Positions 154-60,870 of a stretch of 64,000 bases of DNA are shown here, piece after piece. The translations under genes were made by a program, and so were the position numbers. Numbering within the stretch: position 1 is the stretch's first letter; every line of letters begins with the position of its first letter. Source of the DNA: Woeseia oceani (lineage in GTDB: Bacteria; Pseudomonadota; Gammaproteobacteria; Steroidobacterales; Woeseiaceae); assembly GCF_001677435.1 (NCBI RefSeq), contig NZ_CP016268.1, positions 434,001 through 498,000 on the forward strand, written 5' to 3'. The notes beneath the pieces are model-generated. The model was given only the letters and a program-made list of their open reading frames with translations, was not told the DNA's origin and ran no database searches.

Positions 154-1992
154 ATGCACAAGACTATTGAAGAAGTAACCCGGCGGGTCATCCGTCGTAG
201 CGCACAAGAGCGCGCCGCGTATCTGCTGCGGATTCGACAGGCTGCGGATCAGGGCCCGGCGCGCAACGCGCTGTCGTGCAGCAATCTCGCACACGGCATG
301 GCCGCTTGTGGCCAAAAAACCAAAGAGCAGTTGGCTGGCAATGTAACGCCGAATATCGGCATCGTTTCCGCCTACAACGACATGTTGAGCGCGCACCAGC
401 CGTTTGCGGACTACCCGGACAAAATTCGTGCAGCGGCCGCCGCTTGTGGCGCGACCGCACAGTTTGCCGGTGGTGTGCCGGCGATGTGCGATGGCGTTAC
501 CCAGGGTCAGGACGGCATGGACCTGTCGTTGTTCAGTCGTGACGTTATCGCGCTGTCGACGGCCGTCGCACTCTCGCACAACATGTTTGACGCGGCAGTC
601 TGTCTCGGTATTTGCGACAAAATCGTACCGGGCTTGTTGATCGGAGCATTGTCGTTCGGTCATCTGCCGGTGGTCTTCATACCGGCAGGTCCGATGACCA
701 CGGGCTCGTCGAACAAGGAAAAAGCGCAGGTTCGTGAGGACTACGCGGCCGGACGGGTTGGGCGTGACGAATTGCTGGCCGCGGAGTCGGCGGCTTACCA
801 CGGTCCCGGCACCTGCACGTTTTACGGCACCGCCAACAGCAATCAGATGCTGATGGAGTTCATGGGCCTGCAGTTGCCAGGCGGCTCATTTGTAAACCCG
901 GGCAGCGCAATGCGGGACCGGCTCACTGACGAAGCGGTGCGGGTAATTCTGGGACTCACGCACCTTGGCGATCAGTACACTCCTATCGGTGAGATTATTG
1001 ATGAGAAGGCGGTCATCAACGGCATCATCGGTTTGCTGGCGACAGGTGGCTCGACGAATCACACGATACACCTGGTCGCGATCGCTGCGGCCGCGGGCAT
1101 CAGGATTGACTGGGACGACATCGCGGAGCTGTCGTCGGTCGTACCGCTCCTGGCCCGTGTCTATCCCAATGGCATGGCAGACGTGAATCAATTTCATGCG
1201 GCGGGCGGTCTGGGTTTCGTTATTCGCGAACTGCTCGATGCCGGTTTGTTGCATGACGAGGTGCGGACGATACTTGGCACGGGTCTGCGACGCCTTTGTC
1301 AGGAGCCATGCACAGATAATGGCGAGCTTGCGTGGCGCGATGGCGAAACTGCGTCGCTTGATCCGGATATCTTGCGGTCGGTTGCCGAACCGTTTGACTC
1401 CGAGGGCGGTCTGCGGGTCGTGCAGGGTGATATCGGCCGTGCGATTGTCAAAGTATCTGCCGTTGATCCGGCCTACCAGAACATTCGTGCTCCCGCTCGG
1501 GTCTTCCCGAGTCAGGAGGCATTCACTGCGGCATTCAACGATGGCGAGCTCGAATGTGATTTCGTTGCGGTGCTGCCGGCGCAGGGTCCGCGTGCAACCG
1601 GCATGCCGGAACTGCACAAGCTGACACCGTACCTCGGGGTATTGCAAAGTCGTGGCTTCAAAGTGGCGTTGCTGACGGACGGCCGGATGTCCGGCGCTTC
1701 GGGAAAAGTACTGGCTGCGATCCAGGTAACTCCGGAGGCCGTTGCAGGTGGTTTGATTGGCAGGATTCAGGATGGCGACATGATCGAGATTGATTCTCAC
1801 AATGGCGCGCTGAAAGTGGCGAATGCCGAATCACTGGCTGCCAGGCAGCAACCACACTACGATCTGACCAGCAGTCACAATGGCATGGGGCGTGAACTGT
1901 TTGTGACTTTCCGCAACAATGTCTCGGGTGCGGAGGCGGGTGCCAGCATCTTTGCCGGCAGCGGTGCAGGCTCGCAGATGCTGCAACGTTAG
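154..1992 (+). CDS. edd: Phosphogluconate dehydratase (Entner-Doudoroff)
   Basis: Cytosolic enzyme that dehydrates 6-phosphogluconate to 2-keto-3-deoxy-6-phosphogluconate, the first committed step of the Entner-Doudoroff pathway. The 612-residue length matches the Edd family. It carries the IlvD/Edd signatures: [12 protein letters not shown], the cluster-binding GICDKIVPG and [13 protein letters not shown] segments, which supply the iron-sulfur cysteines, and the C-terminal MSGASGK motif. The ATG at 154 gives the expected N-terminus, [12 protein letters not shown]. It lies 34 bases after the lactonase stop and 84 bases before glk, so these genes probably form one glucose catabolic operon. The aldolase (eda) is not in the window. 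Confidence 0.96.
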
Positions 1993-55614: not shown

Positions 55615-56466
55615 TTAGCGTATGGATTCCCGCTCGACGAGTTCGTCGATGACTTTGATCAGGTTCGGGTAGCCACCGGCTTCCCCGGCACCCGTGCGGT
55701 ACTTGCCATTGACGACGACTGCCGGCACACCGGTGATGCCGTAACGTCGGCCGAGATCCTCGGCGACGCGCATTTTTTGCGCGACTTCAAATGACTTCCA
55801 TGTGTTGCTGAAGTCTTCCGCACTGACGCCGAAACGTTCAAACAAGGCCTGAATCGCGCCTTCGGAAGTCATGCGGTTGCCACGCTGGTGATACTCGCGA
55901 AAGACGGTGGCGCGGAATTCCTCGGGATCGGCGAGCTTGCCGTTCTTGGTCAGTACTTCTTCCGTGTAGTAGAGCTGCCCGTGCAGTTTGACCAGCGGGT
56001 TCCACATGGCGGGTATGCGTACAAAGCGGGCATTTGCCGGCTTGCTTTGTGCCCAGCGATTGATGATCGGTTCGAAGTCGTAGCAGTGATTGCAGCCGTA
56101 CCAAAAGATTTCGGCCACTTCGACCTTGTCAGCGCCGCCAACCGTCGGTTGCGTTGGCACCAGGCGGAAATACTGCTTGCCTTCCTCGAACTGCCAGTCA
56201 CGGGCGGCCGATGTATCGGCCTGGGCCAACAGCAGCGGCACGTCATCCGTATTCTGGTCCTCAACTTCTTCTGCTGAGGACTCCTCAACGAGGGTCGGGG
56301 TCTGCTTTTCGTCAGTCACAGGTGGCGTGACCGCGGCGGGTGCTTCCTGCGCAACTTCGTCCCGCGGCGTGTCTGCCGCCGTGTTACTGGCCGGGCCCGA
56401 TTGTTCGGAACTGCAACCACTCAGTATGAGGGCCAACAAAAACGCGTGGACATGCAAATACTTCAT
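55615..56466 (-). CDS. DsbA-family thiol:disulfide interchange lipoprotein
   Basis: A 283-residue periplasmic oxidase. The leader has a lipobox (LSGC) and is followed by an acidic, Ala/Pro/Thr-rich linker of about 70 residues. The thioredoxin fold has the active-site CNHC in FWYGCNHCYDFEP and the cis-Pro loop ITGVPAVVV. It forms disulfides in exported proteins. The usual DsbA CPHC has Asn in place of Pro, which would shift the redox potential. The long linker and lipid anchor are unlike E. coli DsbA. Position next to cytochrome c4 and engB agrees with the pseudomonad arrangement. Confidence 0.9.
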   Translation of the reverse strand: MKYLHVHAFLLALILSGCSSEQSGPASNTAADTPRDEVAQEAPAAVTPPVTDEKQTPTLVEESSAEEVEDQNTDDVPLLLAQADTSAARDWQFEEGKQYFRLVPTQPTVGGADKVEVAEIFWYGCNHCYDFEPIINRWAQSKPANARFVRIPAMWNPLVKLHGQLYYTEEVLTKNGKLADPEEFRATVFREYHQRGNRMTSEGAIQALFERFGVSAEDFSNTWKSFEVAQKMRVAEDLGRRYGITGVPAVVVNGKYRTGAGEAGGYPNLIKVIDELVERESIR

Positions 56467-57364: not shown

Positions 57365-57964
57365 ATGTCGCAATACCCCGATGCACATTTCCTGACGAGC
57401 GCAAATGCTCCCTCCCAGTTCGTGGCCGATACGGGCTCTGAAGTCGCGGTTGCGGGCCGCTCGAATGCCGGAAAATCCAGCGCGATCAATGTGATCGTCA
57501 ACCGCCGCCAGTTCGCCCGGACCAGCAAGACCCCCGGTCGCACCCAGCTGATCAACTTCTTTGCGCTGCGTGACGAGGCACGGCTGGTGGACCTGCCCGG
57601 CTACGGCTTTGCCAAGGTGACCGCGAGCACCCGGGCGCATTGGGGGCAATTGATCCAGCAATACTTCGAGCAGCGGCAAAGCCTGCAAGGGCTGCTGCTG
57701 GTCGTCGATATCCGCCGCGGCTTGACCGATTTCGACCAGCAGCTACTTGCCCTGTGTCATTCGGTCGACGTTCCGGTGCACGTCCTGCTGACCAAATGCG
57801 ACAAACTGAAGCGCGGCCAGGCCGCCAGTGCTCTGCTGGCGGTTCGTCGCGAGCTGGCCGACACGGCCACGGTGCAACTGTTCTCTGCCCTCAAACGGAC
57901 CGGGCTGGATGACGCTCGCGTGCAACTCGATGCCTTCCTGCAGCAACCGCTCGACCGCGACTGA
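57365..57964 (+). CDS. engB: Ribosome biogenesis GTP-binding protein EngB/YsxC
   Basis: A 199-residue essential GTPase for 50S ribosome assembly. All G motifs are visible: G1 GRSNAGKSS, G2 in KTPGRTQ, G3 DLPGYGFAKV, G4 TKCDK, G5 SALKRTG. Divergent from cytochrome c4 and convergent with polA; this polA-engB-cytochrome c4 order is common in gammaproteobacteria. Confidence 0.96.
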   Translation: MSQYPDAHFLTSANAPSQFVADTGSEVAVAGRSNAGKSSAINVIVNRRQFARTSKTPGRTQLINFFALRDEARLVDLPGYGFAKVTASTRAHWGQLIQQYFEQRQSLQGLLLVVDIRRGLTDFDQQLLALCHSVDVPVHVLLTKCDKLKRGQAASALLAVRRELADTATVQLFSALKRTGLDDARVQLDAFLQQPLDRD

Positions 57965-57981: not shown

Positions 57982-58019
57982 AAAAAAACCCCGGAATGTC
58001 GTTGCTACGCATCCGGGGT
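57982..58019 (-). terminator. Intrinsic terminator of the sRNA candidate / polA transcript
   Basis: ACCCCGGA (57988-57995) pairs with TCCGGGGT (58012-58019) and is followed on the minus strand by seven T (57988-57982). Orientation serves transcripts coming from polA or the sRNA; it lies just after the convergent engB stop. Confidence 0.88.
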
Positions 58020-58127
58020 CAAGTAGTGCAACTGGCTTGGGGCAGCCGAATTGCGTGCCTGAGTAGGGAGATAAACAGGCAAGTGAATCAACACTCAGGC
58101 ATTTTGAACAGCCCGCTGAAGGAGAGT
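57982..58127 (-). ncRNA. Candidate small regulatory RNA between polA and engB
   Basis: Reading the minus strand, a GATAAT -10-like hexamer (58136-58131) precedes an unoccupied stretch of about 146 bases. It starts with a pyrimidine-rich CTCTCCTT, contains a 9-bp stem (58093-58101 with 58056-58064), a weaker hairpin (about 58028-58054), and ends in the stem CCCCGGA/TCCGGGG plus seven T. A second CTCCC sits in the loop of the 9-bp stem. CTCTCCTT can pair with Shine-Dalgarno sequences. E. coli Spot 42 and Pseudomonas ErsA occupy this same neighbourhood, which supports an sRNA. The -35 is poor and the 5' end is a guess. It could instead be only the polA 3' region. Confidence 0.6.
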
Positions 58128-58167
58128 TCCATTATCTTGTAACAAATTGATATTTATAGATATCTTC

Positions 58168-60870
58168 TCAGTGAGCCTCGTCCCAGTTGAGTCCCTTGCC
58201 AACTTCGACCAGCAGCGGCACGGCCAGGCTTGCGGCGTTGCACATCAGGCGGGTGATAGTGTTGCTCAGCTCGTCCGCCGCGTCCGGATCGATCTCGAAC
58301 ACCAGTTCATCGTGAACCTGCATGATCAGGCGCGCGGGCGGCTTGTCGTTCTGCAGCCAGGCAAACATGTCAATCATGGCCTTTTTGATGATGTCGGCGG
58401 CCGTGCCCTGCATCGGCGCATTGATGGCGCTGCGCTCCGCGTACTGGCGACGTTGCGCATTGCGATCGTTGATCTGTGGCAGGTACAGCCGACGGCCAAA
58501 CAGCGTTTCGACGAAGCCGGCCTGGCGGGCCTGTTCACGGATATTGTCCATATAGGCTTTGACGCCGGGGTAGCGATCAAAATAGAGATCGACGTAATCC
58601 TGAGCCTCTCCGCGCGAGGTGCCCAGCTGCTTTGCAAGGCCAAAGGCGGACATGCCGTACATCAGGCCAAAATTAATGGCCTTCGCCGAGCGTCGTTGAT
58701 TGGCAGTGACCTCGCCAATTGGCACGCCGAAGACTTCCGCTGCTGTTGCCTGGTGCACGTCGCGCTCTTCATTAAAGGCTTCGAGCAGGCCAGCGTCGCC
58801 GGACAGGTGCGCCATGATCCGCAGTTCGATCTGGGAATAGTCGGCGGCCAGCAGGATCTTGCCCTCCGGTGCAACAAAGGCCTTGCGTATGCGGCGGCCT
58901 TCTTCGCTGCGAATCGGGATGTTCTGCAAATTCGGATCGGTCGATGACAGGCGGCCGGTTGCGGCGACCGCCTGGTGATAGGAGGTGTGTATCCGTCCCG
59001 AGGTTTCGTTGATTTGCAGCGGCAGCTTGTCGGTATACGTGCTCTTCAGTTTGCTGACACTGCGATACTCCAGAATGATCCGCGGCAAGTCATAGTCGTC
59101 GGCCAGTTCCGCGAGCACGTCCTCGGCGGTGGAGGGCTGTCCCTTCGGCGTTTTGCGTACCACCGGCAGCGCCAGTTTCTCGAACAGAATTTCCTGCAGT
59201 TGTTTCGGCGAACCCAGGTTGAACGGGCCGCCGGCCGCTTCGTGGGCTTCTTCTTCCAGCCTGGCCATCGTTTTGGCCAGCTCCCCGCTTTGCTTTTTGA
59301 GCATGCCGCGATCAACCAGGACGCCGGTTTCTTCCATCGCGATCAACACGGGCACGAGCGGTTGTTCAATGGTTTCGTAAAGTGTGGCCAACGACGGGAT
59401 CTTGTCGAGTTCACTCTTGAGCTTTTTGTGCAGTCGCAGGGTGATGTCGGCATCTTCGGCGGCATACGGTGCGGCTTGCGGAAGGGCAACCTGATTAAAA
59501 GTGATCTGTTTCGCGCCCTTGCCCGCGACATCTTCGTAATGAATGGTATCGATGCCGAGGTAGTGGCGGCAGGTTGAATCCATGTCGTGCCGGGTTGCGA
59601 CACTGTTCAGTACGTAGGACTCGAGCATGGAGTCGAACTGAATGCCGGCCAGTTGTATGCCGTAGCGGGCGAAAATGTGCGCGTCGTATTTCAGGTGATG
59701 ACCCACTTTATGTTGTGACGGGTCTTCCAGCCAGGGCTGCATGGCCTTCAGCACCGCATCGCGGGACAGCTGATCCGGTGCACCGGGGTAATCGTGGGCA
59801 ACCGGGATGTAGGCGGCTTCACCTTCCTTAACCGCCAGCGAAATGCCGACGAGTTCGGCATTCATGTAGTTGAGACTGTTGGTCTCGGTGTCGAGCGCGA
59901 CCAGCTCCGCCGAATTGATTTTTTTCAGCCACTGATCGAACGCCGCCTGGGTGAGCACGGTTTCGTACTGTCCTTTAACGGCAACCGGTTCGGCAGCCGG
60001 GCTTTCCTCAGCGTCACCGGCTTCGAGGAGTTGCCGCAACAAGGTACGCAATTCGTAGTGTTCGTAGAACGACCGTAGAAAATCATTGTCTGGCTCGGCA
60101 ACACGCAGCTGATCCGGCGCTTCAGCCAGTTCGACGGTTTGCCGGATTGTCGCGAGCTGGCGTGACAACTCCAGTTGGTCAAGGTTGTCGCGCAGGCTTT
60201 CGCCAACTTTGCCGCCGATCTCGTCGGCCCGGGCGATCAGCGTGTCGATATCGTTGTATTCGTTCAGCCACTTGGCGGCGGTTTTCGGGCCGACTTTCGG
60301 AACACCCGGAATATTGTCGGACTTGTCACCGACCAGTGCGAGGTAGTCAATAATCTGTTCCGGCCAGACGTCGAATTTCTTCTTTACGCCGTCGCGATCC
60401 AGGTGGGTGTCAGTCATGGTGTTGACCAGCGTCACCTGTTCATTGACGAGCTGCGCCATGTCCTTGTCGCCGGTCGATACCAGGACCTGCATGCCGGCTG
60501 CGCTGGCTGTGCGACACAAGGTACCAATCACGTCGTCCGCTTCCACGCCTTCGATGCGCAGCATCGGTAACCCAAGTGCTGGCACGACCTCCAGCAATGG
60601 CCCGATCTGCGCCCGCAGTTCATCCGGCATCGGTGGCCGGTTGGATTTGTACTCTTCGAATAACTCGTCGCGAAAGGTTTTGCCCGGCGCGTCAAACACG
60701 ACCGCGAAACAGTCGCTCTGGTGTTCGCGTAGCAGCTTGATCAGCATGTTCAGTACGCCGTGCAATGCGCCGGTCGGTTCGCCCTTCGCTGTTGATAACG
60801 GCGGCAAAGCATGAAAAGCGCGGTACAGGTACGAAGACCCGTCTACGAGTACGAGTTTTTTCTGGCTCAT
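58168..60870 (-). CDS. polA: DNA polymerase I
   Basis: A 900-residue repair and Okazaki-processing polymerase. The N-terminal 5'-3' exonuclease begins LVLVDGSSYLYRAFHALPPL. The 3'-5' proofreading domain keeps its acidic residues (ALDTETNSL, KYDAHIF, AAEDADITLR). Polymerase motif A is ADYSQIELRIMAHLSGD, motif B RRSAKAINFGLMYG and motif C MQVHDELVFE. All three activities look intact. It begins 13 bases after lptM. Confidence 0.98.
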   Translation of the reverse strand: MSQKKLVLVDGSSYLYRAFHALPPLSTAKGEPTGALHGVLNMLIKLLREHQSDCFAVVFDAPGKTFRDELFEEYKSNRPPMPDELRAQIGPLLEVVPALGLPMLRIEGVEADDVIGTLCRTASAAGMQVLVSTGDKDMAQLVNEQVTLVNTMTDTHLDRDGVKKKFDVWPEQIIDYLALVGDKSDNIPGVPKVGPKTAAKWLNEYNDIDTLIARADEIGGKVGESLRDNLDQLELSRQLATIRQTVELAEAPDQLRVAEPDNDFLRSFYEHYELRTLLRQLLEAGDAEESPAAEPVAVKGQYETVLTQAAFDQWLKKINSAELVALDTETNSLNYMNAELVGISLAVKEGEAAYIPVAHDYPGAPDQLSRDAVLKAMQPWLEDPSQHKVGHHLKYDAHIFARYGIQLAGIQFDSMLESYVLNSVATRHDMDSTCRHYLGIDTIHYEDVAGKGAKQITFNQVALPQAAPYAAEDADITLRLHKKLKSELDKIPSLATLYETIEQPLVPVLIAMEETGVLVDRGMLKKQSGELAKTMARLEEEAHEAAGGPFNLGSPKQLQEILFEKLALPVVRKTPKGQPSTAEDVLAELADDYDLPRIILEYRSVSKLKSTYTDKLPLQINETSGRIHTSYHQAVAATGRLSSTDPNLQNIPIRSEEGRRIRKAFVAPEGKILLAADYSQIELRIMAHLSGDAGLLEAFNEERDVHQATAAEVFGVPIGEVTANQRRSAKAINFGLMYGMSAFGLAKQLGTSRGEAQDYVDLYFDRYPGVKAYMDNIREQARQAGFVETLFGRRLYLPQINDRNAQRRQYAERSAINAPMQGTAADIIKKAMIDMFAWLQNDKPPARLIMQVHDELVFEIDPDAADELSNTITRLMCNAASLAVPLLVEVGKGLNWDEAH

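Follow-up and report, generated by a model that had tools for sequence, protein, structure and literature searches.

Locus and structured element

What occupies the short space between polA and engB in this genome, and is it kin to the small RNAs (sRNAs) that lie beside polA in other bacteria? The authors who described sX13 raised a similar question, asking whether other bacteria, too, have related sRNAs at their polA loci (PMC3771888). Within the window (the whole 64-kb stretch of DNA analysed here), polA (58168..60870, minus strand; open reading frame and homologue search) and engB (ysxC/yihA; 57365..57964, plus strand; TIGR03598 above cut-off) converge on a gap of 203 nt. A sequence-only reading of this DNA had proposed an sRNA gene on the minus strand of the gap, the position of Spot 42 and ErsA, and it is at that position and on that strand that we found a conserved structured element of ~115 nt (57982..58096, minus strand), with polA as its upstream neighbour on the same strand. 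Its predicted start (58096) and the end of its U tail (57982) are conserved in relatives, and its extent is also supported by the fold and by a covariance model from other families (R3, below). The genome carries one match to the sRNA. Rfam at curated cut-offs gave no match in the whole window, and a permissive Rfam search (E ≤ 10) restricted to the gap returned the two families anti-hemB and PsrR1, the former at 20.1 bits (E 0.017; its cut-off is 49.5 bits) and the latter at 15.8 bits (E 1.8). From these and the following comparisons we infer that the polA–engB gap encodes a conserved small regulatory RNA on the minus strand.

Between 58096 and 57982 the 115-nt sequence has a folding free energy of -44.9 kcal/mol (z -5.5), which 0/200 shuffles equalled, and the longer version proposed by the sequence-only reading also folds well (z -4.5). 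That reading had counted two internal hairpins and a strong terminator; the fold has three hairpins in addition to the terminator hairpin, and the terminator was borne out, with the structured element ending at 57982. All lie on the minus strand. SL1 (58081..58096) contains helix 1, in which 96.3% of alignment cells are paired, and is followed by SL2 (58057..58080; helix 2, 6/9 pairs changed on both sides), which presents a C-rich loop, CUCCC (58066..58070), that is invariant in 66/66 aligned copies, has an unpaired probability of 1.0 and is proposed as a seed of anti-Shine-Dalgarno type. SL3 (58028..58054; helix 3, 3/8 pairs changed on both sides) carries a second C-rich loop, CCCCAA (58037..58042), proposed as a second seed, of which CCCCA is likewise invariant (66/66) with its five bases unpaired at ≥ 0.99. 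The intrinsic terminator hairpin and U tail (57982..58020) were predicted in the fold and found in relatives. A first fold with a longer 5′ end, in which GCCUGAGUG paired with the 3′ arm of SL2, was superseded by the fold started at the conserved 58096, which agrees with the family consensus.

Conservation in the window's family and order

EngB-like matches, some of them to other GTPases, were found in 104/107 genomes of the window's family, and loci with adjacent polA and engB yielded 99 gaps, 81 of them distinct, from 80 genomes (G097 being counted twice, as L054 and L103). The RNA was present in 79/81 gap sequences, the exceptions being L076 and L095, with gaps of 86 and 93 nt. Segments from 72 of the 81 gaps were usable and 66 of these were aligned; across the 66 copies both loops, CUCCC and CCCCA, are constant, 97.1% of stem cells are paired and 10/22 pairs are changed on both sides. 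The covariation score (0.211) compares with a shuffled mean of 0.150, was equalled in 0/500 shuffles and exceeds all six slid controls. A covariance search across relatives that share the polA–engB order, one of the checks that the sequence-only reading had suggested, found conserved hairpins, covarying stems and invariant loops.

The family model, R2, matched 311/396 genomes of the order (E ≤ 0.05), and those listed as unmatched include 12 from the window's own family. Relatives in the small-genome genus g5 (1.1–2.0 Mb) mostly had no R2 match, with one marginal match (G025, E 0.039), and G103 and G030, with polA–engB gaps < 100 nt, had none; some of the genomes in this set are incomplete assemblies.

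A putative sigmaE-type promoter

Upstream of the element, on the minus strand, lie a -35-like box of sigmaE type, GAACTC (58124..58129), and a -10-like box, TCAAA (58103..58107), 16 nt past the first box and 6 nt ahead of the first hairpin. The same two-box layout (GAAC(T)-type and TCNAA-type) recurs in 77/78 family gap sequences, with 6.3 expected from shuffles; this count took 78 of the 81 gaps, since L076 and L095 do not carry the RNA and at L056 the loop pattern escaped the automated scoring. Spacing between the boxes is 16 nt in 74/77 gaps and 17 nt in 3/77, the distance from second box to first hairpin is 6 nt in 61/77, and a strict form (GAACT, TC[TC]AA) occurs in 53 gaps against 0.03 expected. 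We take the layout GAACT-16-TC(N)AA to be the sigmaE/AlgU promoter form. The same genome encodes rpoE (TIGR02939, 298.8 bits; cut-off 236.15), and a sigma-70 promoter scan of the region found none.

These boxes shift the predicted start away from that of the sequence-only reading, which lay ~30 nt too far upstream of the conserved start near 58096. Its minus-strand -10-like element, GATAAT (58131..58136), is present, but a promoter role for it is unsupported, the sigma-70 scan being empty and the conserved boxes being others. The anti-Shine-Dalgarno sequence that it noted near the 5′ end, CTCTCCTT (58119..58126, minus strand), is also present, but as it overlaps the -35-like GAACTC and the spacer, upstream of the conserved start, it is probably not transcribed; the conserved anti-Shine-Dalgarno-like sequence is instead the CUCCC loop (58070-58066). 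As start signals, GATAAT and the 5′ CTCTCCTT are superseded by the conserved two-box promoter.

Distribution across the class

Beyond the order, R2 matched 121/369 genomes in a sample of the class, and matches in other families of the class show the same hairpin order. A third C-rich loop, in the terminator, was scored in 33/45 copies of other families vs 10/64 in the window's family. Among 155 family representatives, 54 had an R2 match (E ≤ 0.05): 31 with a copy ≤ 1.5 kb downstream of polA on the same strand, 2 near polA on the opposite strand, and 21 in other places, on a different contig or in a genome with no polA match. An RNA private to the window's lineage, which the sequence-only reading had offered as one option (an independent sRNA of this lineage), is ruled out by the class-wide matches of R2 and R3.

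Because R2 scores were weak in Xanthomonadaceae, we turned to a second covariance model, R3, for an independent test. It was trained on 46 sequences from other families of the class, taken from 65 R2 matches once both family copies, the majority of duplicates and a number of weak matches had been removed, and by family labels it excludes f1 (the window's family), f28 and f195 (sX13) and f175 (ErsA). In its alignment 31/32 pairs are changed on both sides (0/500 shuffles). Although built without the window's family, R3 places the window RNA in the proposed wider family, matching 57982-58099 with 53.1 bits (E 7e-12) against 6.5 bits for the second-best match in the 64-kb window; E-values of these covariance models are rough. 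Of 29 loci from the window's family (L003 and L013 from one genome, L009 and L015 from another), R3 matched 27/27 that carry the RNA and 0/2 that lack it.

Across 60 polA loci of the class, R3 matched 30/32 with engB in the fetched flank and 5/28 without (Fisher p 1e-9), and for polA loci outside the training set the counts were 8/10 with engB vs 1/24 without. Of the two loci missed beside engB, L201 reaches 35.9 bits once the filters are turned off, and at L226 the gap is very short. In engB regions labelled Legionella, Acinetobacter and Neisseria there was one match only, just downstream of the Acinetobacter engB (13.4 bits, E 0.025), which we took as noise. Outside the class, R3 matched weakly in 21 genomes of the phylum.

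The putative promoter recurs as well. Of the 46 sequences on which R3 was trained, 37 have GAACT upstream (3.3 in shuffles), 35 have the loose two-box form (1.7) and only 6 a strict form (0.05), and a scan of the phylum added 10/17 further loci with GAACT (1.3 expected). Among seven sX13-type copies (f28 and f195), GAACT was found in 0/7 and a GAACC form in 5/7. Since a sigmaE-type promoter recurs across the class, we read the family as one of putative envelope-stress sRNAs, and the window RNA is probably switched on by cell-envelope stress.

The element might alternatively be part of the polA 3′ UTR, released by read-through or processing without a promoter of its own, in which case it could still act as an sRNA. 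It lies directly downstream of polA on the same strand, and its terminator could serve polA. Against this origin stand a two-box promoter at fixed distance in 77/78 gaps, the 23/54 R2 representatives that lack a copy just downstream of polA on its strand, and two loci (L318 and L329) that carry the RNA between engB and hemB, and we regard it as quite unlikely relative to an sRNA with its own sigmaE-type promoter.

Several copies depart from the usual arrangement. G564 (C33:13150-13903) and G671 (C8:6559-7493) hold four tandem matches each, and L166 and L169 two side-by-side copies of the RNA each. At L160 (G409) and L183 (G487) the RNA and polA lie on opposite strands, a sign that the sRNA gene may have been inverted locally. 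The best R3 match among other classes of the phylum, at L336 (G1004; 1501-1632, minus strand; 40.7 bits), has three C-rich loops and no polA nearby, and an ar35 RNA lies elsewhere on that locus.

Relationship to sX13

Ten named Xanthomonadaceae genomes were sampled via a gyrB pattern. R2 reached a best E per genome of 0.07 to 2.8 in 9/10 and found no match in one, with its best match beside polA in 8/10 (E 0.07 to 1.3). On those eight polA loci R3 scored 34-47 bits (E 5e-7 to 3.5e-10). Searched against whole genomes, R3 ranked the polA copy top in 5/6: X. euvesicatoria (E 2e-5), X. hortorum, a Stenotrophomonas, Luteimonas lumbrici and L. endophytica (E 1.1e-4), with genome-wide E of 2e-5 to 8e-7 in four of the five. 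In the sixth, a Pseudoxanthomonas whole genome, R3 gave weak matches only, away from polA. Rfam assigned sX13 (RF02232) at 5/5 such Xanthomonadaceae loci given to it. Second R3 matches off polA (23-27 bits) at L310, L311, L285, L293 and L298, all from Xanthomonadaceae, are possibly other C-rich sRNAs or noise.

In its published description, sX13 is an RNA of 115 nt located 175 bp downstream of polA, whose C-rich loops repress G-rich mRNAs and which acts without need of Hfq (PMC3771888). The window RNA resembles it in lying downstream of polA on the polA strand, in its length (~115 nt), in hairpin order and in apical loops of CUCCC/CCCCA type, and R3 finds both. The two differ in that sX13 has a third C-rich loop, in its terminator, whereas the window RNA has two loops only, and in that sX13 copies show no clear sigmaE promoter whereas the window RNA has sigmaE-type boxes. 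The window RNA lies below the Rfam cut-off for sX13, which was also missing from the gap at E ≤ 10, while another locus of the window's family, L044, scored 34 bits (E 0.008) against the sX13 model.

Relationship to anti-hemB

The Rfam anti-hemB model (RF02837) exceeded its cut-off at six loci of the R2/R3 class set (L161, L166, L170, L173, L198 and L205) and at seven loci of the phylum scan. As five of those first six, L198 and L205 among them, are in the R3 training set, R3 is no independent test for anti-hemB; R2 and the Rfam model applied to the window's family are. At E ≤ 0.05 the Rfam model matched 18/20 family loci (26.7-42.9 bits, E 8.6e-7 to 0.034), all but the window's own and L021. 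Its curated cut-off of 49.5 bits lies above the window (20.1 bits) and all 20 family loci (best 42.9).

Anti-hemB (Burkholderia RNA 7; ncS04) and the window RNA both lie beside engB, and they share SL2 with its CUCCC loop and a terminator. At L318 and L329 the RNA occupies the space between engB and hemB (identified by Pfam ALAD), whereas the window RNA is beside polA and, with polA and engB as its neighbours, not beside hemB; engB is common to both settings. In a study of Burkholderia cenocepacia, ncS04 is given as an expressed RNA of 105 nt, with Hfq binding cited there, and is unchanged in a qPCR table that covers conditions such as osmotic stress and low pH but no envelope-stress treatment (PMC5688073).

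Relationship to ErsA and Spot 42

One family of the class, f175, links the window RNA to ErsA. Its DsbA is closest to PDB 3h93/2mbt/4zl7 and its cytochrome c4 to 6q2u/1etp, which we take to be Pseudomonas proteins, and Rfam assigned Pseudomon-1/ErsA (RF01719) at 4/4 f175 loci given to it. R3 scored 31-36 bits in 8/8 fetched f175 loci (polA and engB both found in 7), with genome-wide E of 8.8e-6 to 2.8e-4, and the promoter there reads GAACT-17-TCAGA. R3 also has matches of up to 29 bits elsewhere in these genomes, only a few bits below ErsA, so it is the combination of position, promoter and score that carries the link.

Two papers describe ErsA as an RNA of 132 nt that is strictly sigma22-dependent (PMC7565897) and that sits in the polA–engB gap and acts on anr via a U-rich single-stranded part, with Hfq dependence and targets on record in P. 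aeruginosa (PMC8575079). The window RNA shares with ErsA the polA–engB gap, the strand and a putative promoter of sigmaE/sigma22 type. It differs in its length (~115 nt) and in its loops: in ErsA a C-rich loop lies in the terminator, SL2 does not retain the CUCCC loop and it is the U-rich unpaired part that is used on anr. The window RNA lies below the Rfam cut-off for ErsA, and the gap gave no ErsA match at E ≤ 10. By these comparisons the putative links to sX13 and anti-hemB are stronger than that to ErsA; a distant relationship to ErsA is supported, as the weakest of the three.

Spot 42 of E. coli occupies the same place between polA and engB/yihA, and the sequence-only reading had suggested a distant member of a Spot 42/ErsA group. 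The ErsA half of that suggestion stands, on place, strand, promoter and R3 score. The Spot 42 half does not: its sequence and structure match is not significant, the E. coli RNA scoring 13.3 bits (E 0.022) against R3 at full sensitivity, which is within the noise and below the best non-polA R3 matches in whole Xanthomonadaceae genomes (up to 27 bits). Nor did Rfam find Spot 42 (RF00021) in the window at cut-off or in the gap at E ≤ 10. We rejected membership of the Spot 42 family, which, shared position notwithstanding, seems very improbable.

The likeness to sX13, anti-hemB and ErsA could instead be analogy, C-rich-loop RNAs having arisen independently by convergence on anti-Shine-Dalgarno loops and terminators. 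The sX13 authors themselves point to C-rich loops in sRNAs that are not related (PMC3771888), the ErsA scores are modest, the E-values rough, and weak R3 matches extend to 21 genomes of other classes. Convergence would nonetheless have to account for a common neighbourhood, strand and four-hairpin order, and outside Xanthomonadaceae a common promoter, for R3 matches at polA loci that follow engB (30/32 vs 5/28; untrained loci, 8/10 vs 1/24), and for an sX13 locus that tops the R3 list in whole named genomes. We consider it unlikely, and favour homology.

Proposed function and wider meaning

The explanation that we hold to be probable is that the window encodes a trans-acting, sigmaE-controlled sRNA of ~115 nt, the C-rich loops of which would mask G-rich ribosome-binding sites, and that it is homologous to sX13, anti-hemB and, remotely, ErsA. 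RNA polymerase with a sigma factor of RpoE/AlgU type would transcribe the sRNA from the GAACT-16-TC(N)AA promoter and stop at the intrinsic terminator, and since the promoter is of sigmaE type, the level of the sRNA should rise on envelope stress. The exposed loops CUCCC and CCCCA would bind several mRNAs, the putative targets, by base-pairing with G-rich sequence around the Shine-Dalgarno element or the start codon, and by analogy with sX13, for which others have shown it, this pairing may mostly repress translation.

A broader reading, towards which we lean with somewhat less assurance, is that ErsA, sX13, anti-hemB and the window RNA form one family and go back to a single C-rich-loop sRNA under sigmaE control, which lay beside engB in an ancestor shared by much of the Gammaproteobacteria (with the betaproteobacteria counted among them). 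Rfam lists the three named families without a clan, and if the reading is true they would need joining, a bolder claim than that the window RNA is a further copy. Our search of the open-access literature found no paper that names both ErsA and sX13, or any two of the three families. MicA and RybB are sigmaE-dependent sRNAs of enteric bacteria, and the family would have a comparable role in non-enteric bacteria, as an sRNA long tied to envelope stress. Work on ErsA (sigma22, biofilm, porins), on sX13 (C-rich loops, G-rich ribosome-binding sites) and on the little-studied anti-hemB would then inform each other, and envelope-stress control would be predicted for many unstudied copies. The question of the sX13 authors on related sRNAs at other polA loci would receive a partial answer, and the window's lineage gains exact predicted ends, a putative promoter and two candidate seed loops for its sRNA. 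Elsewhere in the window, a DsbA-like open reading frame (55615-56466, minus strand) has a long acidic stretch between its signal-like start and its thioredoxin-like part.
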